Below, piece after piece: positions 3,629 to 30,039 of a stretch of DNA of 64,000 nucleotides. Source of the DNA: a virus; IMG/VR virus record IMGVR_UViG_3300030061_002429, positions 37,689 through 101,688 of that record; one strand, 5' to 3'. The position numbers and the translations under genes are program-made. The notes under the pieces were generated by a model, which worked only from the letters and a program-made list of their open reading frames with translations, had not been told where the DNA came from and ran no database searches. Every line of letters begins with the position of its first letter. Within the stretch, counting starts at the first letter, position 1.

Positions 3629-3918
3629 GGATTCGCTCGTTTTTAGAAAAAGGTGAAGTAAGGGGCGTGCAAGACATAAAGACACAATTTGAATTGTGGG
3701 CTTATATGGTTGCAAAGCATTACAGTATATCGCTTCAAGAGGTGTATTCAATGAGTCCTGAAATGTTCAAGCAGTCTATTGTTTGGGCGGGTGTTACAAC
3801 TCAAATCCAAGGCGAAGAACAAGAAAAACGGATGGAAGAAATGAAACAAAAAACGAAGTCCAATGGAAATGAATCTGTTTCAATAGACCATTATAAGAAC
3901 TTCTTGGACATGGAGTGA
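3625..3918 (+). CDS. Putative tail assembly chaperone (second of pair)
   Basis: 97 residues starting at TTG 3625, which overlaps the previous TGA. It is helical and charged, with KRMEEMKQKTK in its C-terminal half, and ends NFLDME. Size and position just upstream of the tape measure fit the gpT-like partner of a tail assembly chaperone. The frame is open upstream of the TTG in the -1 register relative to the preceding gene, so it could be made by re-initiation or as a frameshifted extension. No family motif is visible. Confidence 0.45.
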   Translation: MRIRSFLEKGEVRGVQDIKTQFELWAYMVAKHYSISLQEVYSMSPEMFKQSIVWAGVTTQIQGEEQEKRMEEMKQKTKSNGNESVSIDHYKNFLDME

Positions 3919-3922
3919 TTAG

Positions 3923-5257: not shown

Positions 5258-6468
5258 TGGCAGGTAATGCAAACACCCCAGTACGTTTGGTAAGTCAAAA
5301 CGGTAAGTTTTACAATCTTAACTGTACTACACTTTCAATTGACATAGACAGAAAAGTAAACGCTTCCCCTATGCCGTTTATGAACAGTTATCGTTTCACT
5401 ATGGATTTGAACTTAACCAATGCGATTATTACGCTTGAAGGGTACATCACGGATGACGATGTTATTTCATTTAGTGACGGTAGTGTAGCAATTGCATATG
5501 TTGATTTTGACGCTGTGGAAACTGCAATTGGAAGTAACACAACTGCAACATTTGAGGATTACATTGATATTTTGTTGGATAACAAAACTTCCTTTAGCGG
5601 TATTTTAAATACGCATTCTCATGAACTTAATAGAAAACACGGCTTTGTGATTCAAGATGGTAATGGAGCATTAAGAACCATTTTCTTTGGTGTTATTTCA
5701 ACACAATATGCTACGCACAGTGCTGAATCTGATGCGTTTATTGTTCAAATTCATGACGGTACATCGAGTAAAACTAACGCTGAAATAGCGGCCAATCTAA
5801 AGGCTCTTGTCGATGCATCAATAGCAGGTGCTACTGCATCACTCCAAACGGGTGAAAAAGGAAACACTAACACAAGAGTACAAATTACTTACTCAAGCGT
5901 ACCTTCAGGTAGTACATACGTCAATAATAATTCACCTTACATTACATCAGCAACATGGAAAACAACAACACCCACACCTAAATTTACAACATTTTCAGGT
6001 GGAAAAAGTAACAGTTCTGACACTGGTATGAGTGCTGGTGATATGGTGCAACAACTTTATGCTATTATTGATAACTCAAACGACGAATGGGGTGACAATG
6101 GTAAATCAGACTATATACACGCTGTGCAAATACCATTTTTGTCCAAAGTAGCGGCTGAAACAGGTGACAAGTACTCTTCTCGATATTTCTTTCAAACAGC
6201 AGGTTACGATGTCGAAGATGGTGATTATCTTGGTGAATTTGCATCAGCATCACTAAGCGCAACGCTTACGAATAATTTACTACAAGAAGGCGGTATATAT
6301 GCAAAAGGTTCTGTACCAGTAGGTACAGAATACAGTGAGGCTTGGGGTGGTCGTACATTTACAGGTATCAAAGCCATTGTAGACAAAGCAACGTTTGTTC
6401 AAGTAGGCGGTGAGCCAAACATTTACCAGTTTACAATTATTATGATGCCAACAAATACAATTCTTTGA
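5257..6468 (+). CDS. Tail-associated virion protein, possible distal tail protein
   Basis: 403 residues, beta-rich and with few charges, following the tape measure where distal tail or baseplate genes normally lie. The N-terminus (VRLVSQNGKFYNLNCTTLSI then DIDRKVNASPMPFM) and the segment RFTMDLNLTNAIITLEGYIT resemble tail beta-sandwich proteins rather than an enzyme. The C-terminal half (FTGIKAIVDKATFVQVGG then PNIYQFTIIMMPTN) is also strand-rich. No catalytic motif is seen. Coupled to the tape measure by TAATG and followed 9 bp later by the giant tail gene. Confidence 0.55.
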   Translation: MAGNANTPVRLVSQNGKFYNLNCTTLSIDIDRKVNASPMPFMNSYRFTMDLNLTNAIITLEGYITDDDVISFSDGSVAIAYVDFDAVETAIGSNTTATFEDYIDILLDNKTSFSGILNTHSHELNRKHGFVIQDGNGALRTIFFGVISTQYATHSAESDAFIVQIHDGTSSKTNAEIAANLKALVDASIAGATASLQTGEKGNTNTRVQITYSSVPSGSTYVNNNSPYITSATWKTTTPTPKFTTFSGGKSNSSDTGMSAGDMVQQLYAIIDNSNDEWGDNGKSDYIHAVQIPFLSKVAAETGDKYSSRYFFQTAGYDVEDGDYLGEFASASLSATLTNNLLQEGGIYAKGSVPVGTEYSEAWGGRTFTGIKAIVDKATFVQVGGEPNIYQFTIIMMPTNTIL

Positions 6469-6477
6469 TGTGATACA

Positions 6478-9400
6478 ATGGTAGCAATTGGAAGAACAAG
6501 TCACGCTTTCTTTTTTGATGGCGTATCTGATTCCATTATTATACCACAAAGCACATTTAACAGCACTGGAATAGAACGTAATGGTGTTAAAGCACCCCTT
6601 TCAGCATTGTCGGATGTTGAATTGCAAAACACCATAGGAAACATTTCGTATTCTGATTTTGTTATTGAAGCATGGGTCATTCCCGATTGTGGTGGTATTA
6701 TTGCTCAACGAGATGGACAGTTTCAATTGGAATTAGGAACAGTTGATACGCCCGGACCAGCAGTATTTCATCTTACTATGCAAACAGCGTTTGGTGATAA
6801 AACAATTACACTTAACACTGCTTTTGATAAAACAACTCGATGGGATGGCGTTGTTTACCCGTCACAAGAATATGGCGGTATACATGACTCATACAATCGT
6901 TTTGACACTTCCAATTACGGTGAAGCAAGTGGTTTGAATTTTAATAATCGACCACTGTATCATATTGTTGCTTCGTATCGAGGAGGTAACATTGAATTGT
7001 ATGTCAATACAGATATGGTTGCATCGAAAAAAGTCCCAATAGAATACCGAGTAAAACAGGTTGATGGTCACGTCTATGTTGGTGGGAAGGGTGGTCAATT
7101 TCGTGGTGCTATTGAAAGCATACATTTCTCCAACAGTAAATCAAATAACATTTTCCAACCTGATTTTCCAACGTTAGGGAATGCAAGCACTGGTTTGTAT
7201 CGTTTTGAAGAACCACTTGACATTGTAGAAAAGGTCTACACAATGAATGCTGTAACAGCCGCAACTGATGGTTCGACAAAAACCATCACGATTGGAACGG
7301 CTGATGCACAGGAACTCATCGCTAAATTAACTGGTAAAGCATACGATAGCAGTAGTCCTATTGCGACTTTTACCGAATCACCATACAGTATGGGGAATTA
7401 CGAAGTCAATGATTTTTATTCTACACCCGGTACGACTGCAAAACTTTCGATAGCGCACACGCCTTACAATCTACTCATCAATGCGGGTTCACTTAATCGT
7501 AACACGTTCAAGCCTAATCAAAAACCGCCTGAACGTGTGCGTTTGCATTCTATAGATGGAAGCAATGGAAACATTTCAATTTCGAGTATACACGTTGATT
7601 TCGTTAATGGTACAAGCGGATTGCGAGGTTTATTGCATTCAAGAACGGCTGATATTGATAATTATTTTGTAGTTGTTGGTGCTGATTTATTGATTGATAA
7701 CGGTACAGGAAAGCCCTATCAACCACCGCATTACGGTACACAAATTTTTGACAGAACGGGACAAATGGTTCTTGATGAATCGGACAGTGAATCTCACGGA
7801 TTAGTATACTCATCAAGAATGGCAACAACTACATCTGACCCTAAAAATCCTTTTGCGGTTGTATGGCCTACATCAATTGACACGTTGTTCCAAATTGGTC
7901 ACAGTGGAAGACATGCTCTTTCTCATATTACTGGACACGACTACATGCGAAGATTACCAGTACCAAACGATATGACTGTAGACCAAGTAATGAGTGGTAG
8001 TAGTGATATTGTTACGATGCGTTACGATTCTTCTCAACGTAACTTAAAAAATACAATCAGCATCAATAAGAATGTAGATGCTTACAGTCCTAATTTGAAA
8101 GGAAGCGTGAAAAGTTTTGTTAATACAAGTACTGTGGCTTCTATTGTAGATAACGGCTTACCTGCGTCGGTAAAGGAACTAATCGCTATTGGTGGGGCTG
8201 GGTTCGATGTACGACCGTTTTTCTTGAAAGGTCCAGTTCCACAATCATATGACGAAGAAAGTCGTCTTTTCCATTTACGACCTGAAAAAGAATCTCGTAT
8301 TGCTTTGCTCAAAGTACCCGCATTGCAGTCTTCTCACAATCTTGCACCGTTTGTTGAAATTCATTACAATGCAATTGACTTAACAGGTGCAAGCATGGGG
8401 ATTAGCGGTCCAATGCTCATGGTTGAAAAAACTGTACCAGCAGGGTCTTTTGACTTAGGTAGTGGTACTCGTGTCATTGATGTTATTACCAGTGACCTTG
8501 CGAATACTGTGCTTTATTCAGCAGGTGGAGTAATTGATTTTACAACGGGATATATGGGGTCAAACAATGTATTGAGTAAACCAAATTCTCTTGTTGGTGA
8601 TACGACTGGTGGTAATGATAATGATTCTGAACTTGACTTTTCGACTACACCTGCTGTATATACTCCTGTAAGTGATGTTAATGCTATACCAGCCTCCCCG
8701 CCTAAAGTTATCAAAAAGTCACATGTATCATCTAATCACAATTCAGTTTATCATAAACTGTACTTTACACCTTCAACTAACATAATAACAGAAGAAGACC
8801 AAACGTTTTATCGTAAAATAAAACCTCTTACAACAAAATCTTCCACTGGAGAATTTGATATTGGACCGGTCAACACTCGTTCACATATGTTTGAGATGTT
8901 TGATATTATTGATAATCAATCTACCAATGATAATCGAACAGCCATTTTATATGTTCAACCTTCAAACAAAAAACGTACAAATCAATTTTACAATTTATCC
9001 ACCGCTACAAATGGTCAAGCCACAAGAATGCATATATTGCAACTCATAACAAGAGGGCGAATCCGTAGCATCAATCAAGTTGTAGACGGTGAAACAAATG
9101 AAATTGATACTGAAATTGTCATTCGTGGTATATCGGATGAGTATCTTTCACAGAACATTGACGTTCTTGGTAGTGGTTCGCCTGATTCTCATGTCGTCAA
9201 AGAGATTGAACCCAATGCACCTGTCGTCACCGTCACGCTTGGCGGTCCCGGTCAAGGGGCGGTCAATACCAAGCCCACCTTCGACCCTTCACCGTTAATG
9301 CGTCTACCCGGCTCGACACGGCGAATGTGCGCTGTACAAGGCGTTGAGGTATTTGCTACAAACAGTAGTACAAGCGGTGTCACTGATTCGCTTACTATAC

Positions 9401-12400
9401 GACCTCTTAACAATCAATCACCAGATTTACTTTCATGGGGAACGTATTGCTTCCCAAAGATTGGTCGAGTGTACCTTGCAAGCGGCGCAAGTGCTCTTTA
9501 CTATGCAAAAACTGGTTCGGGCTTTGCATTTGAAAATTCGGCCACTGCAATCAGTGAGCGTCGATTTTTGCTTTCTGATGGAACGGCTGTTGAAAGTTTC
9601 TATGTATGGTGCAAAGCAAACGGGGTAATAACACAATCAGGTGCTACAGTTACAGAAGAAGTTTCTGATTACTTTTACAATGATGATAACTTCAATGATG
9701 ATTCACTTACACAAGATGGTAGTACGGTCAATGACCGTTTATTCCAGTCAATGGACGGAGTAACGCATGATTATCAGTTGGGTTCACAATACTCAAGCAC
9801 TCGTGCGATGGTTGAGATACCGTTTTTCCCTCAACAATTCTTTGACCATGAGAATGAAAACGTGTTCCCCGGACCTGACAACAGTATGAAAATTCATATT
9901 GATGCCACATACACAGCCCATACTTGGAATCCTACACCCGTTGGACGACGTGCTGATGATGTTCAAGTAGCCGACCGTACAGCGTCATCGGCTTATTCAT
10001 ACAATATCAACAATCAAGACTACGTTTCGTCTACAACAATTACAAAAGTAGAATACGACTCAAGTGGTAAATTCTACAAAATTTATGTGTCGCATCCATC
10101 GCTTTTCCCACCTGTCGATACATCAGTGTTTGAATACACCAACATGAAGAAACTACCTCGTTATCGACGTGCATTCTTAGCAAATGGTATGTGGTGTGTG
10201 TATCGTAACGACCCCAGTAGTGACGGTTATCTTCGTGTTGATGAGCATGAAAGTGCAACGAGTGGTGTCATATCAGGTTCGTACGCCAAAGGTTTCTTTG
10301 AAGGTGCAGTGCCACAAACTGCTCTCTTTATTGCACAAGGTTACCGCAGTGAAAATTTACTACCAATAGCATCCGATAATGAAACGCCTTCTTCTGATTA
10401 CGAAGCACGCTCACCGTACTACTACGACAACGCCAACGTCAAAACACAAGGCGGTAATCTTGACTATGGTCTTCGACAGTACGTGAGTGCAATCGAAATT
10501 AAAGCAGGTCCACTTGTCAATCCGCACGCCCCACGAGTTCAATCAGGTGTAGCACAATCTACAATTTTGTCTGTAAAAGGAACAAGTGGAAAATACGTAT
10601 TTAACTTAGAAGATGCCAGTTCGTTTCCTGTTCTTACTGAATATACAAAAGACGTTACAAATTTACTTGCTATTGACGAAGGCGACCTAATGTATATTGC
10701 AGAAGTGCGACTTGCTGATGGTACAACACATGAAATGGTTTATTTTGGAAAACTACTTGAAGATAAGTCTGAAAACACAATCATATGCAAATCGGCAAAT
10801 ACTTCTTTGACGGGTCTTGAAAACGCTACGTTGTCAATAAAAAGAGTTGGTAGAGCCTTACATTCAGCCGCAAGTGTATCAACTGCAACTGATAATGAAA
10901 GAAAGGCATTGACATTTCTCCCTGACACATCCGAACAGTGGACGGTCGCAGTTGCGGCAACCAGTGGTACTACTACTACGATTGAAATCACAACCACTGC
11001 ATCAGATAGACTTGCATCATCGAATACAATAGGATTGAATATACGCAAAGATGACGAGTTGTATATTGACGATGTATCGCATAATGACGTTGATTATCTT
11101 GGAAAAGTGTCTTCTATTGTATCAAACGTTGTAGGAGGTACAACAAACACAGTCATCACGCTTACTACAAACAATGCTTGTGATGTGGCAGTTGGTGACA
11201 AGATTCGAGTTTCAATTCAAAGCGTTGTAGCCGAAGACCAAGACGGTATTTTGAACGCAACGTGGCTAAATCCATACGCTACAGGTGGAATGCGTAACGG
11301 TGACACCGTATGGATGAACATGACCATGAACAACCCACACGCTGTAGAAGGGCTGTTCTGTAAGAGTCGTGGTGTATACAATGAGCATCTCGTATGGAAA
11401 GGTTTCAACGGTGGACGTGGTTCACTTACCAGTCGCCCTCGTGACTCAATCCCTCTTGAGAATTTTTTGATTGGTGATACGTGTTTAGAAACGGCGCAAA
11501 ACTTGGCTCAACACATTAACAAAACAATTGAAATCAATTATGAATCAATGCTTGGTAGTACATACACAGATATTCCAAGAGTAGCATACGTAGACCCATA
11601 TCTTGCTACAGAAGGACATGCTCGTGTATTGCTCTACGATGTAGCCCATGACCGTGAATTTATCGCATTCCATGACCTACACATGCAAGTTCAATCGAGT
11701 GCGGCTACACCGAATATTGGGTTTGGTCGTGACATTGTACATGCAGGTGGCGTTTTAAAACTCGACCGTTTCTTGGTATCTCACAATGGTGGCGCACCGC
11801 ATTACTTTACAACACAAATTGACGTAGCCAATGGATTCCCAAGTGAAAACAAATACTTGCGTAGTACGCAACAATCGAAGTTCATTGAATCAGCCTATGC
11901 ACACGATATAGCAAACAGTAGTGAGAATTTCTTGATACAAGACCCAACTACAAGAGGTAATAACATACAACTCAAAGGTAAAGGTCACGGTCACTTTGTA
12001 CATTCAGGACTAATGTATGGCTTCAATAGTAACATCTACGCTGTGAGTGACAATGCGTTACCTCGTGTTGAACCTGCTGTAGCATCAGTCTATTGGGCAA
12101 ATGAGAAACATAAAAATTCGAGGATAACAAGTCGAGATGCCTTTGTCAAAGCGGTGAAAAATCACCGATTGTCAAAAAATCCATCTACATTTAGTTTCCG
12201 TGACGCAAGTACGTTGTTCGATACACCTGATGGAACACGATGTATTTCAGCATTCTTGAGTTTGAAAGGCATACGCTCCTCTACTCTCGACTTATCGGGT
12301 CATGAAGAAGACCGTTTGGAACATCTACCACACTGGACAGAAATGGATTTTGTGCGACGTATGGTGATTGATTGTGGTGAAGTTGGTGTCAAAGAGGGTG

Positions 12401-15400
12401 TGACGGATATTGAAGCGGCTACTCGTGAAATTGTGCGTTTAATCAATCAAGGCAGTGCAAAGAATGGTCGAACTCACGCACGTCGTCCATCTCAACAATA
12501 CCCCGGTGAAAGTGAAAACCTTGACCTTACACGTATTGGTGTACGACAAGACGTGACTTCCGAAGCAAAAGACCCCAGTAGCGCACACATCAATGCTGAT
12601 TTCGCCGCTACGGGTTCAACCTATGACCCTGCACCGTGGTGGTTTGTAGAAGAAGCATTTGATACTCACGACCGTGGTAGCCACATGGGGTATGTACGTG
12701 CTCACATTGGACGTGTTGTTGAAGACATGAATGGTAATGAGGGCTTCTCAATTGTCATTCACTCCACCGTACCCGGTGCATCAGGTCGTAACTTCTGTGT
12801 ATGGCTTGACAACAGTAAGGGTCAATCGAACTACAAGCCGCAATTCCTTATTGGACACGGTGGGCGATTCCGTAACTTTTGGTGTCAGCCTGATGAAACA
12901 CTGGGCGAGAACATGCATCCAGCCCCAATGCCTCTTAACAAGCATGGTCGCCCATTTGCTCCTGTTACAACACTGCGTGAGTATGTACTTCAAGAAGAAC
13001 CCGATGAGCCATTTACCAACAACCATGATGTCGGTAATCGCAAATCAAACAACTCATCAGAAAACCGCAATGTATCGGCACGTATTGGTGGTATCAATCA
13101 CAATACTGTATCGGATGAGTCGTTTGAAGTCCAAGGTCTTTCGACCAATCTTGTCGAAGGATTGCGAGCAGGTAAGCAAGCAGTTGGGCGTATCAACTTT
13201 GGTGGGCTTGTTGCATCAGGAGTACCCGGCTTTGCACCCGATGCAGGTACACATGGCTTTGGTCGAAGAGGTGATGAGCGATTCGATTACAAATACGGTG
13301 AAGCCATTAAGTTTGGTGACAGTGACCCAACTGCTATCGCTTCATACACAGGACATGTCAATCCAAGTGATGTCACAGAAGATGCAATCGGGGATTCACC
13401 ACTATACGGTTTCAGATTTACCGACCATAGAGGTCGTGGGTATGGTGTACGTTATGTCTACCGTAAATTCGGTCAAGCGTTTTCCGATGAAAATACTACA
13501 TTACCTTCGACCTTAGAAGATGAAGTTATCATTCACATCAATGATGACGATGTTTCAATGGGTGGGTTTACTCTTGGTGGTCATATGCTCGGTTGGGGTG
13601 ACCCAACAGGTCGCTTAGATGTATCAGGACTTCAACTCTCTAAATGGCGTGGTAACCAATGGAGAGGCATGTACGCACCAAATGCAGGTGTTGATGCCGA
13701 AGTAACATGGGACGGTACAGCAAACACACTCACTGTTGTGTTTGAAGCACCATTCAATACTGGTGCTTCTTCATCACCATTAGCAAATCACCCTGATTTA
13801 CTTGGCTATCTTGGTTATCCTCATACCAATGGTGTCATTCATCTCCATGACACATTTACGGGTACAACTGATAAAGGGGTTGTTGGAAACGCATTGTCTT
13901 ACGAATCACGTACAGTGGATGATATAACGGGTACACATATCTTTTACGGGGTACGTGGAGAATCCTTTGTATCATCTCACTACGTGAGTAGCGGAACTGT
14001 AACAGATGCAATAAGGACACAACCTCACGCTTCAGACAACACTATGCGTGTGTTACTATCATCACGCATTAACTGGACAACACTGGTCACCGACGAAGTG
14101 CTTGCGTACGCTACCAACGTGGCTATCAATCATCCTAATCCAAATCAAGAAGATGGAATAGCAGTTGATGTACGTCGATTGTATGCGTGTGACGGTCGTA
14201 CGCTCGGTGAATGGGGCGTAGCCGAAGATGCAATCATTGTACGCTCGCACAACCCACAGCGTGGTGCTACGCCAATTTCAAGCATGTTCTCTTCAAAACT
14301 GCATACCGACTATGCTATACAAGCGGCTCATCTTGAGTACGGAGAATATGAAACATTAGCAAAGGACGCTACTGGGATTTACGCATTCAGTTCATCATCC
14401 GATGCTGTGCATCAACCGATAAGTGATGCACTACTTGACAAGAATAGACAAATTGACGCAGGGTATCTTCCAAGAACAGTACTGCAAATTCGCACAAAAG
14501 GACGAGGGTATCACGCCAACACCCCTACGCCTATCCTTGTTGATTCGTTTAACGACCCTGTACCAGTCGATGCGTGGCGAAAGAATCTGAAAGGTATCAC
14601 ATTCACATCAACAAGTGGTGACCATATCTTACCTGCACTTAACAACGAAATGTTGTTGTTCAATCATTATCAACACTCCGCAAAATACTTTTACCATACA
14701 ACTACAGATAACGGTATTTCTCATGCGCTTATTCCAGCAGGGCAAGAAGGTGCTACAATTGACACTTTTGCTAAAGAGGCATCTTTTGGTGAGCAAAAAC
14801 GTTTCTACTTTACCGATGTACAATATGCCTTGCTTAATTCTATACAGGGTACAAACTCGCTCACTCGTGTTGAATGGGGAAGAGATGACTTTGCAAACCA
14901 AGATTGGGTAGACCATTTCACTGCAAATTTCAGCAATGAAGACCACATATTAATGCGGTTTGGTAATCAAAAGATAGGTGGTCGTCGCTCATACGGTGCT
15001 GTTGATGCTGAACCGCTTGTTTACTTCAAAGGCGCAAAAGACAGCAACGACCATTCCGTACCACTGTACTTTGGTGGTGGTTTTAGCGGCGTAGTGCTGG
15101 ACATTAACGACGGTACAGAAAACGATTATTCATCGTTCTATACACACCCGTATTCCAATGGACCAACAGGTACAGCAGGTATACAAAATGCCAACGAGAT
15201 TTCTACTTCATTTGCTATTGTAGACTGCAATGCGTTGCTTGCATTCTTCCCTGCTACACCATTACTAAATCAACACCGTGGGAGTTTAACGCACCCAGTA
15301 GCCAACCGTAACAATGTCCTTTCACCCGATTTAGCGGCTGGAGCACACACAAGACACACCGATACACCTGCACACGTTGTAGCAAGATACACGGCAGGTA

Positions 15401-18400
15401 TCGTACAGCAAAAACCATCACCGCTTGTGTTGCGTGTAGCGAATCCAAATGCACGATACAAAGACACAGATGTGGGTGAAACACACACGACGTACATTAT
15501 CTTTGGTCCCGGTCAAGCCTTCCCGTTTACGGAAATGACAACAGTCAATTCGGATGAACAACCTCACCCCGGTTATGTTGTCACAACTGGTAATACATGG
15601 AGCAAAGTACCTGCTAACAAGAATCTACCAAATGAAATCAAAAACTCCGACGATAAATACGGACCACCATCAAGTACGTATCAATCAGCACGTCAAGTAT
15701 TCCATTGGAACACAACATGGAATTGGTCACCAGCGCAAGGTATACCTAACATTGGCACAACCACTGGTGCTGGACTTATACAACGTCCTGAACATGGTTC
15801 GCACTATGGTGAGCATTTTACAGGACATGTTGCTGTTACGTTAAACAATCTTGAAGATTATCGAAAAGCACATCCGTACAAGTTTGTAGGTGCAATGTAT
15901 TACGGTATCGCTATGGGTGCTGATTTGTGCTTCCACATGGACGGTGGTTATCATCCCGGTGGTTCTTGGATGGACAACCAGTTATCATTTAATCCACCAC
16001 ATGTCATTAGTGATTACAAAATAAATCGAGGACATAATATTGTACACCCATCAGCATTCCGTGTATCGGGTAAACTTGCAAACAATTTTGTTACAGGTGT
16101 AAGTAATGAAAACATTGCTTTATTGTATGAAGATGAGTTCATTGTAGTTGATGCTACACGTTGTCAAAACGGTGAAGAGTTGGCAACCGTACTCGGACAA
16201 TCCATCAATGAGTTCCCCGGAAGCAGTGCTATCAAAGCGATGGGTGGTACATTTGCACCTTCAATGGGTAATGCTATGCGTCAAGACCGATATGGTTGGA
16301 TTGAAATGTCATTTGAATCTTATACTGTAGACGGTCCACCAGTTGCAATTACTTCTTCAAAAACAATTTTGATAGCAAGTATATCAGGAGCATCTCAAGC
16401 AACGCTTGAACAAATACCCGCATGTGGGTGGCTCCGTACACCTGATGGTGGTACAACAAATGTTGGTTCGGGTGACATACCTACGTTTGCTCCATATCAT
16501 AGTCGAGAAGTTGTTTATGATAGCGGTAGTAGTAGTTACAAAGTGCATTTCTTACTTGCCCCAAACCGTTCATCGAGTCTACCTTTAATGGAAAGTCTAC
16601 GCACATATGATGATGTAGAACAAGGAACTTACGCCGCAGGTTTATCACATCCCGATTATGCAGGTGGAAATCCTACTGCTGTTTATGTGTGGTCAAAGGC
16701 AGGTGTGCATCGTTTCAACAATGAAAATGACTCAACTCGTGACCACATGACACAGGTACACTTTAGCGGTATAGTCGATGCTATTGACCGTACACGCCCC
16801 GTAGGTGCAGTAGGATGGGCAGGGGAGCGTTATTCGTACCTTAACTCTCTTAAGGTAGGTTCGGAGCAGTATGGTGCAGGTTTAGGTGCATGGCATCCAA
16901 TGCTTGGATTTTCACCGTATGGACCGAGTAACAGTTGTATGACAGCGTTTGGTCATCTTGCACATAGTAACCCAATTCCTTTTTCTCCTGAAGGAATAAA
17001 CAGAATCAATAATCAAACTATAGTGAGTGATGCCATCATCAGTAACATATATTCATGGAAGTATGGACTTCCGTCTACTGATGATTATTATGCAACAGAT
17101 TACGCTTTTGAACAGGCTGATAACTCCATTTTAGGAAAACAACCAGTAACATATCGTGATAATAGTGATGACACATTCGCACTACCACGTAGCCTTCACA
17201 TGCCTCAAGGTGTGTACAGTCGAGCGTTTGTTGTTATATCGTACGAAAGCGAAATGGCACTTGTAGCGAAGCACGACAGGGACGGTATCAAAGCAACAGG
17301 TGACTGGCTTTCTGTATCATCGAAAGTCAATGTTGATAGCGTAATCCCTGCAACAGCCATCACGTTTGCAGGTACTACACGATGGGATGAGCGTATTCAC
17401 AATCCTGAACGATTTACAGCACCCGCTAATGCTGGACCCAACGTAGAAGCATTGGTGAGAAAGGACGGTTCTGACCCGTTTACAATGCCTCAAGCGGAGT
17501 ACCCAAGTGCATTCAATTTTGGAGCACCATTGGCAAATGATGAAGATTTATACAACGCTGAACCTTGTTTTAATGAAACGGGTGATTTGTTTTATGATAT
17601 AGACATTAGCCCCGGTGCTTTCCATTTAGAAACAAGTGCGGGTGTTGAACGTAATTTACAACTTAAATACATTACAGGCAGTACAGATGCATCAATTACT
17701 TCTCGTTACACTATAAGCGGTGCTCGTGACTTTTGGGGCGGTGATTTGAATGCATTCCGTCTTGCTGAACATTCACCAGCAAGGAATTTCTCAATTGAAA
17801 ACATTGTATGGAAACGTATGGACGGTGGCAACTTATCACTCCCTGCTGTCAATGCTCGTGGTCTTGGTGCAGTACCGTTTATCACTCGTGTATCGGGCGG
17901 TACAGCCTACACCACTGGTGAAAAATTGTTTGGTAATTGTCGGTTCTCATTTGAAACAACGAACTCGGCAATGTACCCAATCATACAGGCACAGGAGTTG
18001 AGTCATCCACAAATTGCGGCTCGACATCCCGATGAGTTACGTAACGTGCTTGAGATACCGAATGAAGAGTTGCAATTCTTAGCCATGTCTGTTGTGGACG
18101 ACACTGGTCAAGAACATTCAATCGAAGGTGGTTCGCCGTTTGGTACAATCATACGTTCATTCAAACAAATTTCAGACCGTACAGCCGAGGGGTTAGCACC
18201 ATCGGAAGCGGGAAGCGGTGTTGAGCCAAACTTGAAGATTCAACTACCTGATGCTGATGCTATTCCCGGTAACATCATCGTACGTAGTGGATTTGACCGT
18301 CTACAAGCCTATCAGAACGAAACAATGGGTACGGGCGGTATGCTACGTCCAAACATCGAAACGGGCATAGAGGGCATCTTTACAGACGCTACAGACGGTC

Positions 18401-21400
18401 CACGCTTAGGACCGACGTTTAGTGACCATGAATACGACCATATCAGTCAAAACTCCGTAGGCGAAGCCTTCCCCGATATGACACGAAAGGGTTGGAAGTC
18501 GGCAACCAACAATGCACCACTAAAGACATCGTACGAACTGCATGACCGAGCCTTGTTCTTCCACATTACCAAGAACGGTAACTCGCACACGCATCGCTAT
18601 CCTACAATCTACACACACGATAATGGTGTCATCAACAACGCTCTCACGGCACAGACGTATTCAGGCACTACTTTAACAGTGAATGCAACTATCAATACAA
18701 CATTGTATCGTGACGCATATGGTGATTCACAGAAAGACGATGGTGGTACACGTCGATTTTTACGCATATACGACGACGCAACTGGTGAAAGTGGTGTTGC
18801 CTCGTTCACTGGAATATCGACCAATACATTCACTGGTTGTGTAGGTGATTCAGCATTCGATGCTATTGTTGCTAAGAGCAGTATAACGTCATTCAGCGTC
18901 GTGCCTTCATACTACGTACCTGCTGGTAGTAACCGATTCTTTGCGGCACGTCGAATCCGTGACCATGCGGAAGTAAGCGGTAACAGCCCTGACATGGCAC
19001 ACTCGATGTATGTGACTGGACATGGTGGACCGAATGTATTGTGTTATGATGCATACAAAAAGACACGACTTACACCAATGGCAATTCCACGTATGGGTCA
19101 TCACTTCGTTAATGCTACGCAAGCCATGTTACCCGGACATTGGGCGCACCCTGCGTATCAAGGATTGTACTTTAAGCACCGAGCCGACCGTTCAGCAACG
19201 CAAAAGAATCTTGAGCAAGACCTCATTCAAAGCACTGCTCTCGATACCGATAGGTCGAACTTACCAGCAGATACCCAACGTAAGTTACCAGTCTATGACC
19301 CTATGATTACATTCGGCGCAATGACTGCTACACCAAGTGGTCCGAGTGATATTCACGGCGGTGGATTTACACTCATGTTTGAAACCAAAGTCAAGTACGA
19401 TGGCTATGGTGTGTTGGCTTCAAAAGGTCAAGCGGGTGTTGTAAACTCGAAAGGTGGTCATACTATTGTATTGGAAGCAGGTGCTACATATACCCTTAAG
19501 CATCACTTCCCTGACCCATCAGAAGTTGGTGCGTACCAAATCATCATTCAACCTAACGTACACAAGTCACAGTTTTACGGCTACCACGAAAACGGCAGTG
19601 CTACTGGACTACCTGATGGTTCGGTTAATGAATTAACTGGACAACAAGTAGCGTTAGTTATCGGTATACGTGAGCCTGATTCAGCCACAGGTGGACTTGG
19701 TTTGGTCTTAGCCGAAGCAACTATGGCCGATGTACGTGGTTGTGAAGTGTTCATCAATGAGGTTATGCTTGACCATGACCCTGATTATGGTGGACAACTG
19801 GCAAACATACCTCCGCTATTGCTGTACAATGCGTTAGGTGTACAAGGTACAGAAGCACCTGCATTTACACGACGAAGCCTACCGTATCACCCCGGTATGT
19901 TTGTCGATGCTACACCCGGCTTTACAACCAACATACCGTGGTGGTCAATCGTTCACAAAATAAGTCCTGAAGATTCATCAGCAGTAGGATTCCGTCATTT
20001 GACATGGCACAGAATTGATAATTACTACGAGTTCTTACGTGCTGGTGCTGGAAGCATTGCGTGTCAATTGACTCTTGCAGGTTATCCGTCCAACTATCCT
20101 GACTTCTATTCGACCGTATTAGAAAATGTTAGCCTCTCACCTGTTGCTGTGGTAAAGTCGGTGTCTTCAACGCTTATCACTGTCGATGATGCAAGAGGCT
20201 TTCCTAAAGTGCCATACTATGGTATGAAGTTGGAATACACTGATGCTGACGGTATTCGACGTACACATACATACACTGAACGCAGTGGTAATGATGCAAC
20301 ATACATGAACAAACCGTATAGATTCACCATTACTGCATCTTCAAATTTCACCAATAACCTTACTGTGGGAACAAAGATTCGCTTGACTCGTGCATATGAT
20401 TTCCGCCCTGCTGGAAAATTGATGAAGGAATCGAGGTCAAGTATTTTTACACGCATGTTACCTCAATTACTACAAGGTAGTCGTGATACAAACAGCCTTC
20501 ACATGGCTGATGCATATCTATGTTTATGGAATCCAAACCTTGGCCGACCGCACACATTTTATTCAGATGGAAGTCGTACATGGTTGAGTCCAACTGGTGA
20601 CAGGGCAGTTAATCGAAAACCACTGAACAGCCTACCTGAACACTATGAAACCATCCATTACCATGATGCAACATACTACAACAGTTTAGGTCCGTTTACT
20701 TTTACAATGAATACAACAAGACCGATTCAACCATTAGTTACACACGCACTAAGTGATAGGATAATCGTATCAACTGCGAGTAATGTCATAACAACGGCAC
20801 ATTCGCCACCATCATTACCAAATGATACGATTCAAATTGAAAATGAAATTTTTGTTGTTGTGAGCGATACAGGTGCTTTGCTAACTGTGAATCGTGACAT
20901 AACGCATCTTACAAATGGTAGTAAGATATACATTCATGGAGATGGGGATGCAGTAACAGCAGGTGGGTTGCATAGTGATTACACGGCTCAAGGTGGTACA
21001 GATGTCATGCTCAATCATTACTGGCCGTGTGGTAGTCGTGGTGGGCCGCTTACCAGTCGCCTTGATGGGTATGGGTATGTAAGCACTGCGTGGGATTATC
21101 CACAAGAGTATACATCAGACGGTCCTGTATGGGAAGACCAAGATGATACTGGTTCATACGTAGTAAGCAGTGGTATCACAAAAACATCGTATGATTCAAT
21201 CAGTAGCCCTACACGACCTCGACCCTTTGGTTACCGCTTCGGATTGCGACAACCCTACAATAAACCACAGTGGGCTATGTACGGTGCTCGTGCATATCGA
21301 GAAACGCCTATCTCTTCATCAAACACCATTGCGGGGTATCAGCATGGTCCTTTGGTGCAATTAGAAGAAAGAACTACTGGAAACAAGTGGGAATACGTTG

Positions 21401-23208
21401 GTGGAAGTGGTTTATCAAATACCGACTTTAATGCCACATACGTTGGTATTATGGAGCGTCAAACAAACTTCTCCGCTATGCTCGGTGTAGACAAACCTGA
21501 ATGGCAAGTACGATACAGTAACGGTATGCGTATGACACGAGCGTTTGGTTGCCCAGTACGTGTATTACGTAACGCAAACACCGTCATACGTGATTGGTGG
21601 GGTGACCCGCTTGGTAAGAACATCTCAAAGGTAGATGAAGCAGTAAAGTATTATCTTGTTGATTGGTGGGGCAACACTCGTGGTGAAGATGTACGACGTT
21701 ATCCTGTGCGTGGTTTTGGTATACGCCCTGCTTGGGATTGCAGTGACGTATACGAATATGACCGCACCAACGACCTAACTCCATACGCACGTCTATGGAA
21801 CGGCGGTAATCCACTGGTCAATCTCAAGACGCTTGTTGATTTTACAAGTTCAGACCTAACGGCCACCGATGTGAACTTCCCACGTATGGCGGGACGAATC
21901 AACAACGTGAACAACAACGATTCAGCAAATCCAGTCGATGTGTTCTTCCCAACCAACCCACATCGTGTCGGTGACATGGGTAACGGTCGAGGTGTACGCT
22001 ATCCGACCATGTTCAACGAAGATGTACTCACAGACCTTGATGAGCCGTATCACGCCACAGGGGTCGTTCTTTCGCACCATACTGCCGAGCCGAACACATC
22101 AGACGGGTACGTGCGCCCACGTAACGATGTACTGCAACCCAACGAAGTACTGCGTGGTATCAGTGCTCGGTTGGGTGTCGATGAAGATGGACTGCTCAAA
22201 CCCGAAGCCGTAGCAAGCGACCGTGTAGAAGACTTCACTGGTGACACACCGCACAAGGATGCTATCAGTCGGTCAAGCCCACGTATCGGTATTGACAGCG
22301 AGAACATCGAGGGTGTAGATGACAACCTTATTGCTATCAACACAGAAGCACACAGTCTTCACACAGACCGCAACGTAGGACAGCGAGTGGTTATGGAGGG
22401 TGGCTTGACCGCAGGTTCACAGACGCTTACCGATTACGACCTTACTGGTTTGACCTTCGCTGCACAGCCACAGGGTGGTGCAATGAGATTGACCCACACC
22501 TCCAACTTCAACCCAATGGGTGGTACATACCTCGCTGAAACCCGCAACTTCCTTGCACCTATCAGTGACAAAGATTGGGGCGGTATAAGTGGGTCAAACA
22601 AGACATCAAACCCGTACGAAACAAACGTACACGTAAGCAACAAGCAAACAAACTTGACCGACAAGAAAGTTACTTTCATGCTTAGACCAGTGCGATTGCT
22701 TGACAAGCAACACGTTGAGATGTTCCGACCAAACAACAACCTGCACTCATCATCCCCGCAATACGGCGCAAACTACTTTTCGGCTACTGCTGGTGGTAAG
22801 TATGGTATGTATGTGTATGAAGTAGAAAATGGTCGAGCAAGTTCAGGCTACTACATCCGTAGCACTAACCCCGACACCAATCCACCTTATGCGCCGTTGT
22901 ATGTCATGGACATTAGTGGTGACGAGTCTGTACCAGTAAGCAAAGGGCCAAAGTTGCCCGGTATCAGTGAAACATCATTCGATAGTACAAAACTCAACAA
23001 TGCGGTCACTCGTATTGTCATCAGCGAAAACACGCTCCAACACTATCGTGCTGATGCGGCACGTCGTCGCTCCCGCATTGACAGTGATGAAACAACAAAG
23101 CGTATGGACTTCTCCGTAGTACCACGATTCTCACAGGCACTTCATCCAAAAGGACATAAAGGTGATGTAACCTACAACACATCAGACCACACAGGTGATG
23201 GCGCATGA
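6478..23208 (+). CDS. Giant 5,576-residue tail/adhesion protein with LamG-like domains
   Basis: One uninterrupted frame of 16.7 kb, a quarter of the window. Residues about 10-245 look like a LamG/concanavalin-type jelly roll: FDGVSDSIIIPQ, then FVIEAWVIPDCGGIIAQRDG, IVASYRGGNIELYVNTDMVA and a closing GLYRFEEP. A second LamG-like region is near residues 4295-4450 (FTLMFETKVKYDGYGVLASK ... GCEVFINEVML). Most of the rest is Gly/Ser/Thr/His/Asn-rich, beta-like and unassigned, with scattered small beta modules (about 1,360-1,500 and 4,540-4,650). There is no signal peptide, transmembrane segment or obvious protease motif. Its place after the distal tail gene and before hub and fibre genes suggests a tail-tip or side-fibre adhesin that binds the host surface. 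Large host-recognition proteins exist in other phages, but this size is extreme. Stop overlaps the next ATG (ATGA). Confidence 0.75.
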   Translation: MVAIGRTSHAFFFDGVSDSIIIPQSTFNSTGIERNGVKAPLSALSDVELQNTIGNISYSDFVIEAWVIPDCGGIIAQRDGQFQLELGTVDTPGPAVFHLTMQTAFGDKTITLNTAFDKTTRWDGVVYPSQEYGGIHDSYNRFDTSNYGEASGLNFNNRPLYHIVASYRGGNIELYVNTDMVASKKVPIEYRVKQVDGHVYVGGKGGQFRGAIESIHFSNSKSNNIFQPDFPTLGNASTGLYRFEEPLDIVEKVYTMNAVTAATDGSTKTITIGTADAQELIAKLTGKAYDSSSPIATFTESPYSMGNYEVNDFYSTPGTTAKLSIAHTPYNLLINAGSLNRNTFKPNQKPPERVRLHSIDGSNGNISISSIHVDFVNGTSGLRGLLHSRTADIDNYFVVVGADLLIDNGTGKPYQPPHYGTQIFDRTGQMVLDESDSESHGLVYSSRMATTTSDPKNPFAVVWPTSIDTLFQIGHSGRHALSHITGHDYMRRLPVPNDMTVDQVMSGSSDIVTMRYDSSQRNLKNTISINKNVDAYSPNLKGSVKSFVNTSTVASIVDNGLPASVKELIAIGGAGFDVRPFFLKGPVPQSYDEESRLFHLRPEKESRIALLKVPALQSSHNLAPFVEIHYNAIDLTGASMGISGPMLMVEKTVPAGSFDLGSGTRVIDVITSDLANTVLYSAGGVIDFTTGYMGSNNVLSKPNSLVGDTTGGNDNDSELDFSTTPAVYTPVSDVNAIPASPPKVIKKSHVSSNHNSVYHKLYFTPSTNIITEEDQTFYRKIKPLTTKSSTGEFDIGPVNTRSHMFEMFDIIDNQSTNDNRTAILYVQPSNKKRTNQFYNLSTATNGQATRMHILQLITRGRIRSINQVVDGETNEIDTEIVIRGISDEYLSQNIDVLGSGSPDSHVVKEIEPNAPVVTVTLGGPGQGAVNTKPTFDPSPLMRLPGSTRRMCAVQGVEVFATNSSTSGVTDSLTIRPLNNQSPDLLSWGTYCFPKIGRVYLASGASALYYAKTGSGFAFENSATAISERRFLLSDGTAVESFYVWCKANGVITQSGATVTEEVSDYFYNDDNFNDDSLTQDGSTVNDRLFQSMDGVTHDYQLGSQYSSTRAMVEIPFFPQQFFDHENENVFPGPDNSMKIHIDATYTAHTWNPTPVGRRADDVQVADRTASSAYSYNINNQDYVSSTTITKVEYDSSGKFYKIYVSHPSLFPPVDTSVFEYTNMKKLPRYRRAFLANGMWCVYRNDPSSDGYLRVDEHESATSGVISGSYAKGFFEGAVPQTALFIAQGYRSENLLPIASDNETPSSDYEARSPYYYDNANVKTQGGNLDYGLRQYVSAIEIKAGPLVNPHAPRVQSGVAQSTILSVKGTSGKYVFNLEDASSFPVLTEYTKDVTNLLAIDEGDLMYIAEVRLADGTTHEMVYFGKLLEDKSENTIICKSANTSLTGLENATLSIKRVGRALHSAASVSTATDNERKALTFLPDTSEQWTVAVAATSGTTTTIEITTTASDRLASSNTIGLNIRKDDELYIDDVSHNDVDYLGKVSSIVSNVVGGTTNTVITLTTNNACDVAVGDKIRVSIQSVVAEDQDGILNATWLNPYATGGMRNGDTVWMNMTMNNPHAVEGLFCKSRGVYNEHLVWKGFNGGRGSLTSRPRDSIPLENFLIGDTCLETAQNLAQHINKTIEINYESMLGSTYTDIPRVAYVDPYLATEGHARVLLYDVAHDREFIAFHDLHMQVQSSAATPNIGFGRDIVHAGGVLKLDRFLVSHNGGAPHYFTTQIDVANGFPSENKYLRSTQQSKFIESAYAHDIANSSENFLIQDPTTRGNNIQLKGKGHGHFVHSGLMYGFNSNIYAVSDNALPRVEPAVASVYWANEKHKNSRITSRDAFVKAVKNHRLSKNPSTFSFRDASTLFDTPDGTRCISAFLSLKGIRSSTLDLSGHEEDRLEHLPHWTEMDFVRRMVIDCGEVGVKEGVTDIEAATREIVRLINQGSAKNGRTHARRPSQQYPGESENLDLTRIGVRQDVTSEAKDPSSAHINADFAATGSTYDPAPWWFVEEAFDTHDRGSHMGYVRAHIGRVVEDMNGNEGFSIVIHSTVPGASGRNFCVWLDNSKGQSNYKPQFLIGHGGRFRNFWCQPDETLGENMHPAPMPLNKHGRPFAPVTTLREYVLQEEPDEPFTNNHDVGNRKSNNSSENRNVSARIGGINHNTVSDESFEVQGLSTNLVEGLRAGKQAVGRINFGGLVASGVPGFAPDAGTHGFGRRGDERFDYKYGEAIKFGDSDPTAIASYTGHVNPSDVTEDAIGDSPLYGFRFTDHRGRGYGVRYVYRKFGQAFSDENTTLPSTLEDEVIIHINDDDVSMGGFTLGGHMLGWGDPTGRLDVSGLQLSKWRGNQWRGMYAPNAGVDAEVTWDGTANTLTVVFEAPFNTGASSSPLANHPDLLGYLGYPHTNGVIHLHDTFTGTTDKGVVGNALSYESRTVDDITGTHIFYGVRGESFVSSHYVSSGTVTDAIRTQPHASDNTMRVLLSSRINWTTLVTDEVLAYATNVAINHPNPNQEDGIAVDVRRLYACDGRTLGEWGVAEDAIIVRSHNPQRGATPISSMFSSKLHTDYAIQAAHLEYGEYETLAKDATGIYAFSSSSDAVHQPISDALLDKNRQIDAGYLPRTVLQIRTKGRGYHANTPTPILVDSFNDPVPVDAWRKNLKGITFTSTSGDHILPALNNEMLLFNHYQHSAKYFYHTTTDNGISHALIPAGQEGATIDTFAKEASFGEQKRFYFTDVQYALLNSIQGTNSLTRVEWGRDDFANQDWVDHFTANFSNEDHILMRFGNQKIGGRRSYGAVDAEPLVYFKGAKDSNDHSVPLYFGGGFSGVVLDINDGTENDYSSFYTHPYSNGPTGTAGIQNANEISTSFAIVDCNALLAFFPATPLLNQHRGSLTHPVANRNNVLSPDLAAGAHTRHTDTPAHVVARYTAGIVQQKPSPLVLRVANPNARYKDTDVGETHTTYIIFGPGQAFPFTEMTTVNSDEQPHPGYVVTTGNTWSKVPANKNLPNEIKNSDDKYGPPSSTYQSARQVFHWNTTWNWSPAQGIPNIGTTTGAGLIQRPEHGSHYGEHFTGHVAVTLNNLEDYRKAHPYKFVGAMYYGIAMGADLCFHMDGGYHPGGSWMDNQLSFNPPHVISDYKINRGHNIVHPSAFRVSGKLANNFVTGVSNENIALLYEDEFIVVDATRCQNGEELATVLGQSINEFPGSSAIKAMGGTFAPSMGNAMRQDRYGWIEMSFESYTVDGPPVAITSSKTILIASISGASQATLEQIPACGWLRTPDGGTTNVGSGDIPTFAPYHSREVVYDSGSSSYKVHFLLAPNRSSSLPLMESLRTYDDVEQGTYAAGLSHPDYAGGNPTAVYVWSKAGVHRFNNENDSTRDHMTQVHFSGIVDAIDRTRPVGAVGWAGERYSYLNSLKVGSEQYGAGLGAWHPMLGFSPYGPSNSCMTAFGHLAHSNPIPFSPEGINRINNQTIVSDAIISNIYSWKYGLPSTDDYYATDYAFEQADNSILGKQPVTYRDNSDDTFALPRSLHMPQGVYSRAFVVISYESEMALVAKHDRDGIKATGDWLSVSSKVNVDSVIPATAITFAGTTRWDERIHNPERFTAPANAGPNVEALVRKDGSDPFTMPQAEYPSAFNFGAPLANDEDLYNAEPCFNETGDLFYDIDISPGAFHLETSAGVERNLQLKYITGSTDASITSRYTISGARDFWGGDLNAFRLAEHSPARNFSIENIVWKRMDGGNLSLPAVNARGLGAVPFITRVSGGTAYTTGEKLFGNCRFSFETTNSAMYPIIQAQELSHPQIAARHPDELRNVLEIPNEELQFLAMSVVDDTGQEHSIEGGSPFGTIIRSFKQISDRTAEGLAPSEAGSGVEPNLKIQLPDADAIPGNIIVRSGFDRLQAYQNETMGTGGMLRPNIETGIEGIFTDATDGPRLGPTFSDHEYDHISQNSVGEAFPDMTRKGWKSATNNAPLKTSYELHDRALFFHITKNGNSHTHRYPTIYTHDNGVINNALTAQTYSGTTLTVNATINTTLYRDAYGDSQKDDGGTRRFLRIYDDATGESGVASFTGISTNTFTGCVGDSAFDAIVAKSSITSFSVVPSYYVPAGSNRFFAARRIRDHAEVSGNSPDMAHSMYVTGHGGPNVLCYDAYKKTRLTPMAIPRMGHHFVNATQAMLPGHWAHPAYQGLYFKHRADRSATQKNLEQDLIQSTALDTDRSNLPADTQRKLPVYDPMITFGAMTATPSGPSDIHGGGFTLMFETKVKYDGYGVLASKGQAGVVNSKGGHTIVLEAGATYTLKHHFPDPSEVGAYQIIIQPNVHKSQFYGYHENGSATGLPDGSVNELTGQQVALVIGIREPDSATGGLGLVLAEATMADVRGCEVFINEVMLDHDPDYGGQLANIPPLLLYNALGVQGTEAPAFTRRSLPYHPGMFVDATPGFTTNIPWWSIVHKISPEDSSAVGFRHLTWHRIDNYYEFLRAGAGSIACQLTLAGYPSNYPDFYSTVLENVSLSPVAVVKSVSSTLITVDDARGFPKVPYYGMKLEYTDADGIRRTHTYTERSGNDATYMNKPYRFTITASSNFTNNLTVGTKIRLTRAYDFRPAGKLMKESRSSIFTRMLPQLLQGSRDTNSLHMADAYLCLWNPNLGRPHTFYSDGSRTWLSPTGDRAVNRKPLNSLPEHYETIHYHDATYYNSLGPFTFTMNTTRPIQPLVTHALSDRIIVSTASNVITTAHSPPSLPNDTIQIENEIFVVVSDTGALLTVNRDITHLTNGSKIYIHGDGDAVTAGGLHSDYTAQGGTDVMLNHYWPCGSRGGPLTSRLDGYGYVSTAWDYPQEYTSDGPVWEDQDDTGSYVVSSGITKTSYDSISSPTRPRPFGYRFGLRQPYNKPQWAMYGARAYRETPISSSNTIAGYQHGPLVQLEERTTGNKWEYVGGSGLSNTDFNATYVGIMERQTNFSAMLGVDKPEWQVRYSNGMRMTRAFGCPVRVLRNANTVIRDWWGDPLGKNISKVDEAVKYYLVDWWGNTRGEDVRRYPVRGFGIRPAWDCSDVYEYDRTNDLTPYARLWNGGNPLVNLKTLVDFTSSDLTATDVNFPRMAGRINNVNNNDSANPVDVFFPTNPHRVGDMGNGRGVRYPTMFNEDVLTDLDEPYHATGVVLSHHTAEPNTSDGYVRPRNDVLQPNEVLRGISARLGVDEDGLLKPEAVASDRVEDFTGDTPHKDAISRSSPRIGIDSENIEGVDDNLIAINTEAHSLHTDRNVGQRVVMEGGLTAGSQTLTDYDLTGLTFAAQPQGGAMRLTHTSNFNPMGGTYLAETRNFLAPISDKDWGGISGSNKTSNPYETNVHVSNKQTNLTDKKVTFMLRPVRLLDKQHVEMFRPNNNLHSSSPQYGANYFSATAGGKYGMYVYEVENGRASSGYYIRSTNPDTNPPYAPLYVMDISGDESVPVSKGPKLPGISETSFDSTKLNNAVTRIVISENTLQHYRADAARRRSRIDSDETTKRMDFSVVPRFSQALHPKGHKGDVTYNTSDHTGDGA

Positions 23209-23543
23209 TTGAATACGACTTTTGCGATTGTTGTACACCAATGGAAAATGCAATAGCATTGATGAAAGCAAAGAAAAAGAGCAAGCCTTTTCACGGCTAC
23301 AATCCAAATCGACATCACAGAAAGGGTGGTTTAAACGCTAAAGGACGTGCCAAAGCAAAGCGTGAAACTGGCGCAAACCTCAAACCACCTGTGACAACAA
23401 AGCCGAGCAAACTCAAACCCGGTAGCAAGAAAGCCAAGCGTCGTAAATCATTCTGTGCAAGAATGGGTGGTATGAAAGGACCAACATCGAAGAAAGGCAA
23501 ATTGACTCCGAAGGGTGCGGCTCTCAAGCGATGGAACTGTTGA
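23205..23543 (+). CDS. DUF6321-like basic protein
   Basis: 112 residues. The N-terminal 25 residues include a CDCC cluster. From about residue 40 the sequence matches the marine-phage DUF6321 pattern: KGGLNAKGRAKAKRETGANL, KPGSKKAKRRKSFCARMGGM and the terminal LKRWNC. It is very basic (many Lys/Arg), so nucleic-acid binding is plausible, but its function is unknown. It is coupled to the giant tail gene by ATGA, and is often found among structural genes of marine viruses. Confidence 0.8.
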   Translation: MIEYDFCDCCTPMENAIALMKAKKKSKPFHGYNPNRHHRKGGLNAKGRAKAKRETGANLKPPVTTKPSKLKPGSKKAKRRKSFCARMGGMKGPTSKKGKLTPKGAALKRWNC

Positions 23544-28362: not shown

Positions 28363-28519
28363 ACGCACTGTCAATCCAAAAGTGACCACACTCTTTGCAT
28401 TGCAACATGTGCAGTCGTTCTTTTTCACCGTCAATGTAGCGAGCAGTGAGCCTTCTCGGTATGTGCCAATGTGTGCATCTTCGGCACTTGACCTTCAAGC
28501 GGTCAAGCAAACGCCCCAT
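28346..28519 (-). CDS. Small zinc-ribbon protein
   Basis: 57 residues, starting at ATG 28519, which overlaps the chaperonin stop (TGATG). Two CxxC knuckles, CRRC (residues 12-15) and CKEC (41-44), flank a basic stretch, giving a four-cysteine zinc ribbon that probably binds nucleic acid or protein. It is the last gene of the helicase-exonuclease-chaperonin operon and its 3' end overlaps the convergent membrane-peptide gene. Confidence 0.7.
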   Translation of the reverse strand: MGRLLDRLKVKCRRCTHWHIPRRLTARYIDGEKERLHMLQCKECGHFWIDSAFNRQS

Positions 28520-30039
28520 CACTCAACGCCTCGTCGTGCAATGATGTCATCAATGCGTAGGATAGCATTCGTGACTTCAGCCGCACTAAGCACTGCTTGA
28601 CGTACGAGTTCAGCAGGTTCAAGCACGCCCAACTTGAGCATGTCGCACACGCCTCCGTTCTCAACATCAGGACCAACCGTGAGGTCGCCGTCCATCAGAC
28701 GGTGACGTAGTTCAAGGATGGTATCGAGTGGGTCATGACCTGCATTCTCGGCAATGGTCGCAGGGATGGTTTCTAAGGCATCAGCAAACGCCTCAATAGC
28801 CATCTGTGCTCTACCCCCTACCTGTGCCGCATGTTGGCGTAGATAGACGGCCATACGAGCGTAGGCATTGCCTCCGCCCACGACGACCTTCTCATCACCA
28901 ATTACCATTGATACGACACCAAGAGCGTCATCAAATCCACGCTCGACTTCTTCCAGTGTGTGCGTGGTTGCACCACGCAAGATAAGCGTAGCCTCTTTGC
29001 TCTCCTTGTGATTTGAATGCACGAACAAATACCATATGTCGTTGTGCATCTCACGTACGACCTTTGTCATTGTCATGTCTTCGATGTCATCAACGGTTTG
29101 GTAGATGACACTGTTTGTAGCACGCTTCATGGCACGCATAGCGGATTCAGGCGTACGGCGTACAACATAGATACCGTTCTTCTTGAGGTACGCACAAACG
29201 TGGTCATTGACCCCATCACGTACGAAAACAATACCTACTTTACCTTTGAAAGCATCAACAATCTCTTTGGCTCTTGAAATCAAATCAGCCTTACCTGCCG
29301 ATTTGTATGTACTGTATGACTGTGCATCGAGTTGTACTTGCACGTTCTCTTCGTTCTTTTCAACATCAAGGCCAGTATTGATGAGCATCATGTGGTAGTA
29401 CTCGCTTGCATCAGACTCATCTTCAATCACGAAGTCCTTGCTCACAATGACACCGTTGAACAGGGATGAGTCATTGACCGAGCCACCCGGAAACGACACC
29501 ACACGCACAGACTTCGCATCACCCGCTTGCTCAACAGCCGATACACACAGTTCAGCCACTTGGTCAAGCGAATGCTCAAGTGTCTTACCAGTGATTGCTG
29601 TCTTAGCAACGGACAGTGTTTCATCTCGCCCTTCGGCAAGCATTGTAATTTCATCTTGCAAGTACTTGGTTGCCATTTGTGAAGCCTCGTGATACCCACG
29701 ACAAATCACATTCGGGTGCAAACCTTTAGCGAACAATGCTTCGGTATGTCCAAGCAATGCCCCTGAAAGTACGACTGTACTTGTTGTTCCGTCGTAGCAT
29801 AGGTTTTCTTGTGTCTTTGCTACTTCGGCAATCATCTTCCCGCCCGGATGTGAAACATCGACTTCACGGAGGATGGTAGCCCCGTCATTCGTTACGATGA
29901 CGTTGCCGTGTCCATCGACCAACATCTTGTCCATACCCATCGGTCCAAGCGTAGACTTGACGGTTTCAGCAATCGTCCTTGCCGCCCGTATGTTCATCGC
30001 TTGTGCATTCGTTCTTGTTTGTTCTGTATCTTTCTTCAA
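28519..30039 (-). CDS. Group II chaperonin (thermosome/CCT-like subunit)
   Basis: 506 residues. It has the TCP-1/thermosome signatures: TLGPMGMDKMLV (30-41), VTNDGATIL (49-57), the ATPase loop YDGTTSTV (82-89, catalytic Asp83 kept), a GGGNAYARMAVYLR segment and AENAGHDPLD near residue 430. Length is slightly below cellular subunits (about 540), and the usual Gly/Met-rich C-terminal tail is absent. It should form double-ring folding chambers, alone or mixed with host subunits; the giant tail or capsid proteins are plausible clients. The start is TTG 30039, overlapping the exonuclease stop (TTGA), with GAGGTGA upstream. Viral thermosomes are reported from magroviruses. Confidence 0.92.
   Translation of the reverse strand: MKKDTEQTRTNAQAMNIRAARTIAETVKSTLGPMGMDKMLVDGHGNVIVTNDGATILREVDVSHPGGKMIAEVAKTQENLCYDGTTSTVVLSGALLGHTEALFAKGLHPNVICRGYHEASQMATKYLQDEITMLAEGRDETLSVAKTAITGKTLEHSLDQVAELCVSAVEQAGDAKSVRVVSFPGGSVNDSSLFNGVIVSKDFVIEDESDASEYYHMMLINTGLDVEKNEENVQVQLDAQSYSTYKSAGKADLISRAKEIVDAFKGKVGIVFVRDGVNDHVCAYLKKNGIYVVRRTPESAMRAMKRATNSVIYQTVDDIEDMTMTKVVREMHNDIWYLFVHSNHKESKEATLILRGATTHTLEEVERGFDDALGVVSMVIGDEKVVVGGGNAYARMAVYLRQHAAQVGGRAQMAIEAFADALETIPATIAENAGHDPLDTILELRHRLMDGDLTVGPDVENGGVCDMLKLGVLEPAELVRQAVLSAAEVTNAILRIDDIIARRGVE

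Follow-up and report, generated by a model that had tools for sequence, protein, structure and literature searches.

In HFTV1, an archaeal tailed virus with a solved virion, the tail genes run from the tape measure protein (gp40) through the connector (gp41), the tail fibre protein (gp42) and gp43 to the baseplate hub (gp44), for which a carbohydrate-binding domain has been predicted (PMC12494034). In HCTV-5, a member of the Druskaviridae, gp131 adjoins the hub-position gene gp132, the slot between them holds no giant gene, and the individual genes gp133-gp137 lie downstream of the hub, a LamG protein being encoded separately as gp136.

Here we analyse a window of 64,000 nucleotides, the final part of a 101,688-bp virus record (IMG/VR IMGVR_UViG_3300030061_002429), in which genes for a tail tube, a tape measure and a hub-position protein are related to those of HCTV-5 and arranged in the same order. 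Like HFTV1 gp42, a very long gene of this window lies between the tape measure and connector genes and the baseplate hub gene of an archaeal tailed virus, the connector gene being recognized here by position only. The two differ in size (443 aa for gp42, 5,576 aa for the giant) and share no detectable sequence similarity; a tail fibre of the gp42 kind would be expected to form a hub-bound trimer in the virion. By the HFTV1 gene order gp40-gp44 the giant gene sits in the tail-fibre slot, and because this is the position of the tail-fibre gene of a cultured archaeal virus, its product is probably an enormous part of the tail devoted to host attachment.

The giant gene and its setting

The giant gene begins with an ATG at 6478 and ends with a TGA at 23208, and the sequence-only reading, which had described a single open frame of 16.7 kb and 5,576 residues filling about a quarter of the window, was exact in both coordinates and size. 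As the window is the final 64 kb of the record, the gene accounts for 26% of the window and for 16.5% of the record. At the base composition of the window, we estimate the probability of a chance open run of this length at ~e^-320. The predicted product has a mass of 611 kDa and a pI of 5.6, and none of its hydrophobic stretches is clearly strong enough to span a membrane.

Scanning IMG/VR with the giant protein yielded 76 loci, 41-95% identical to it, and at least 287 stretches of the same collection match a profile built on the conserved region. In the fetched loci, the frame is complete in 56 unique copies (5,173-6,793 codons) and broken in only three, each interrupted elsewhere and none sharing a conserved split point with another; one of the breaks (in L060) shows a short tandem duplication, as is common in misassemblies. 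Intact frames in independent contigs, together with breaks at unrelated places, rule out an assembly artefact and agree with the earlier claim that the frame contains no frameshift. The relatives can be aligned over their full length, including the last ten residues, and comparison with a relative of 88% identity gave a dN/dS of 0.14 overall and of 0.03-0.21 across 400-codon windows. In the closest pair, the N-terminal part diverges faster. No homolog was confirmed in the cellular genomes of GTDB, and none was found in the INPHARED phage collection with residues 1-3000 and 3001-5576 as queries. UniProt A0A1B1IU10, listed in BFVD without a name, is a member of the giant family (47% identity over ~1,218 columns, TM 0.73).

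The placement of the giant between distal tail and hub genes, also proposed from the letters of the window, was upheld for the hub by phrog_21793 and hhalign and for the upstream neighbour by position (Table 1). Four members of the hub-candidate family match phrog_21793 (best 6e-7), to which HCTV-5 gp132 belongs; the 403-aa protein upstream of the giant matched neither HCTV-5 gp131 nor HFTV1 gp41 in sequence. The hub gene lies downstream of the giant in all 56 loci with 4 kb of downstream sequence and directly adjoins it in about 25 of these. When loci were retrieved through the tube or hub gene, the giant was present in 132 of 160, and the remaining 28 are apparently too short for it to be seen. 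In the window, the two genes are separated by the gene for a Lys/Arg-rich DUF6321 protein, which has relatives in 34 fetched loci and whose ATG overlaps the stop codon of the giant. A clade comprising L017, L018, L022 and L024 carries extra genes of 939-1,170 aa downstream of the hub region, and a second very long frame, of 1,932 aa, was seen outside the window (L197:4920-10718).

Table 1. Features of the tail module and the nearby thermosome gene, in window positions
Feature	Position	Strand	Basis
Tail tube protein, 638 aa	868..2784	+	hhalign 96.4% to HCTV-5 gp127
Tail assembly chaperone candidate, 129 aa	3239..3628	+	hhalign 56% to HCTV-5 gp128 (weak)
Tape measure protein, 444 aa	3923..5257	+	phrog_9807 2.3e-13; hhalign 95.8% to HCTV-5 gp130
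Distal-tail / baseplate-connector-position protein, 403 aa	5257..6468	+	position only
Giant tail protein gene (predicted), 5,576 aa	6478..23208	+	homologs, 56 unique intact frames, purifying selection
N-terminal LamG / concanavalin A-like jelly roll, residues 1 to ~240	6478..7197	+	Pfam, AF2, Foldseek
Small beta module copy 1, residues 1374-1457	10597..10848	+	hhalign to 4566-4640, probability 89.5, E 2e-6
Small beta module copy 2, residues 4566-4640	20173..20397	+	profile self-comparison; model blocks pLDDT ~73-87
Insertion point near residue 5374	22595..22602	+	relatives: ~68-78-aa mobile module or ~240-aa LamG
DUF6321 protein, 112 aa, basic	23205..23543	+	Pfam PF19846 4.5e-17; between giant and hub
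Baseplate hub candidate, 475 aa	24635..26062	+	phrog_21793 (family matches); hhalign 48% to HCTV-5 gp132
Viral thermosome (group II chaperonin)	28519..30039	-	PF00118 1.4e-124

Domains, repeats and exchange within the giant protein

LamG folds had been suggested for the N-terminus and for one internal region, and the first of these assignments stands and the second could not be confirmed. Laminin_G_3 (PF13385) matches the N-terminus of 12 of the 18 family members (best 5.1e-8); the score of the window's own protein, 24.1 bits (E 4.3e-5), lies under the curated cut-off of 27.6. AF2 modelling of residues 1-1180 (mean pLDDT 75) gave a mostly beta structure, with a pLDDT of ~77-93 at residues 61-240 and a low value in the loop at 21-60, and Foldseek matches it to LamG-type folds. 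The top PDB matches of this model are lectin-like jelly rolls of unrelated proteins with a whole-model TM of ~0.1, which is evidence for the fold only. What the N-terminus of the giant has in common with the Laminin_G_3 domains known from proteins of phages and archaeal viruses is the fold and a weak-to-clear sequence match, and this part makes up only ~4% of the protein. For the internal region, no Pfam match to LamG was obtained in the C-terminal third of the window's protein, and the AF2 model of residues 4251-5450 (pLDDT 49), whose best blocks include 4566-4640, is too poor to interpret. Some relatives do have a LamG insert of ~240 residues, at residue 5374.

The earlier observation that most of the protein matches nothing recognizable was confirmed, in that beyond the N-terminus we found no Pfam family, no confident PHROG and no PDB sequence match; a known enzyme or solved fold received no support from sequence comparison. 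Profile self-comparison detected only one small beta module, present in two or three copies (the weak third copy lies at ~4041-4145), so that the giant is essentially free of repeats and the earlier statement that no repeats had collapsed is right. The repeat-built giant adhesins of bacteria consist of tandem repeats. They resemble the giant in size and in presumed surface exposure but differ in just this respect, and the self-comparison rules out a tandem-repeat adhesin. The giant is not the tape measure protein either, as that protein has a separate gene (Table 1) and beta structure predominates where the N-terminal part of the giant was modelled.

Comparison with related contigs, which the sequence-only reading had recommended for size and domain turnover, revealed, besides the range of sizes given above, both insertion of modules and swapping of segments between relatives. 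Additional pieces occur at fixed points of a common scaffold. The commonest, inserted at many sites among the relatives, is a module of ~68-78 residues, present in 68 giant frames and absent from the window's protein, with a ~68-residue consensus of FTDATCDYNNDPTITMDSTAKLVVGMxVSGTGIPxGATVSSITNATTFELSASTTGGSVTNGTLTFT (L138, L222, L264, L360-L438); one relative has 588 extra residues at 5099. Copies of the module that are ~91% identical in protein stand at three non-homologous sites (2426/2438, 4906/4912 and 5368/5377), which were checked with 150-residue flanks, some assignments made with short flanks being noisy, and the scaffolds around them are 37-74% identical to the window's protein. These copies are only 71-75% identical in DNA, which gives no support to a recent transposition; the spread of the module is therefore old, and its sequence has been maintained by selection. 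The module also occurs in the tail tube and in a Dit-like protein of the virus group and in proteins of 800-1,000 residues of other marine viruses, and it weakly resembles phage virion-structural families. Its presence on the tail tube makes it probable that the giant is exposed on the virion. Whole segments vary as well: in the DNA of the giant gene, L033 and L064 are 95-97% identical for residues 1-1000, only 72-81% for residues 1001-3000 and again 93-97% for residues 3001-5000. Such sharp steps within the gene, from 97% down to 72% and up again, show that relatives have exchanged segments.

Virus lineage and thermosome

The PolB of the virus has its best match in the phage collection in HCTV-5, and the earlier view of an archaeal virus is supported. 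Membership of the Magrovirales, judged here by gene content and size, agrees with the relationship of both PolB and the tail genes to the Druskaviridae, with the chaperonin gene and with a record of 101.7 kb (expected ~90-110 kb). To judge from the literature, the hosts are probably common uncultured archaea of the ocean.

The viral thermosome that had been noticed in the window is indeed present; of 14 long contigs with the giant that were tested, 13 also carry it, the exception being a 70-kb fragment. It lies within 10 kb of the giant in 26 of 41 loci and was not found within that distance in the clade of L017, L018, L022 and L024; no gene for a Cpn10 partner was found in the window's own record. 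Published viruses of marine group II include a clade of 18 genomes that carries the thermosome throughout, the other clades having chaperonins of the GroEL type, and the window virus fits the thermosome-bearing clade (PMC5332604). The co-occurrence of thermosome and giant may reflect help with folding, of which it is no proof. The capacity of a chaperonin cage is far below 611 kDa, so any help from the thermosome would be given domain by domain.

Role of the giant protein

We consider it probable that the giant is an outsized, almost non-repetitive baseplate or fibre adhesin at the tail tip of a magrovirus-like member of the Caudoviricetes. Gene order and the modules held in common with the tail tube strongly suggest its location in the tail, and the LamG domain and the analogy with HFTV1 point to adhesion. 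The giant gene occupies the tail-fibre slot, with the Dit/connector-position gene on one side and the hub gene on the other, and the giant would be a fibre-shaped part of the virion. Its N-terminal jelly roll, with the LamG and small beta modules of relatives, would bind glycans on the archaeal surface, and its conserved remainder would form a scaffold attached to the hub. The exchangeable small modules, which the tail tube also carries, would decorate the exterior, and changes of modules and of whole segments between lineages would tune the interactions with the surface, while the virus's own thermosome may assist the folding of the giant. The segmental exchange and the faster divergence of the N-terminal part suit a recognition protein. 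Against this reading, the giant lacks sequence similarity to HFTV1 gp42 (hhalign with all segments, nothing above 3%), to solved structures and to named tail families. Phage fibres do not usually have their binding domain at the N-terminus, and neither sequence searches nor the AF2 models of residues 1-1180 and 4251-5450 revealed a domain for anchoring in the virion. Homology to the HFTV1 tail proteins and to HCTV-5 gp131 and gp133-137 was likewise not found.

The size of the giant would also suit a polyprotein in which several tail-tip proteins are fused and later released by a protease as individual mature proteins, all the more so as HCTV-5 has gp133-gp137 as individual genes downstream of its hub and prohead proteases occur in most magroviral genomes according to a published survey (PMC10160649). 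However, alignment to these HCTV-5 proteins and to gp131 failed for every segment of the giant, and conservation is continuous, with no variable linkers at regular places. The three broken frames, interrupted at unrelated sites, lend this explanation no support since they lack a conserved split point, and we think it improbable. The giant could instead be a baseplate scaffold or an extension of the hub, with adhesion left to other genes such as a fibre-like 568-aa gene downstream, which resembles the tail fibre family phrog_26758 (1.4e-7). That most of the giant is conserved rather than hypervariable speaks for such a division of labour; the N-terminal LamG domain, the LamG inserts of relatives, the modular turnover and the swapping of segments speak against it and make it, in our judgement, a rather unlikely account.

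N4-like phages carry a giant enzyme in the virion and eject it into the host. A protein delivered in this way might be expected from the very large size of the giant and from the many invariant W, R, H, G and D positions of its internal regions, but searches of 18 members detected no catalytic family, and both the LamG-type domains and the modules of surface type point to the exterior of the virion, so that we regard ejection as very improbable. The adhesin reading leads to a broader suggestion about this lineage of ocean archaeal viruses, which we offer tentatively and with more doubt than confidence: its tail tip may be built on a single non-repetitive polypeptide of ~600 kDa that depends on the thermosome and adjusts host range through inserted or swapped beta domains.

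The giant is a conserved gene that occupies a sixth of the genome and has apparently gone undescribed, at least in the part of the magrovirus literature covered here. In a published survey, Laminin_G_3 is listed among the 'auxiliary metabolic genes' of four magrovirus groups; since LamG is part of a structural gene of the tail in the present lineage, that label may be mistaken, at least there. The giant also offers a possible explanation for the chaperonin of these viruses.
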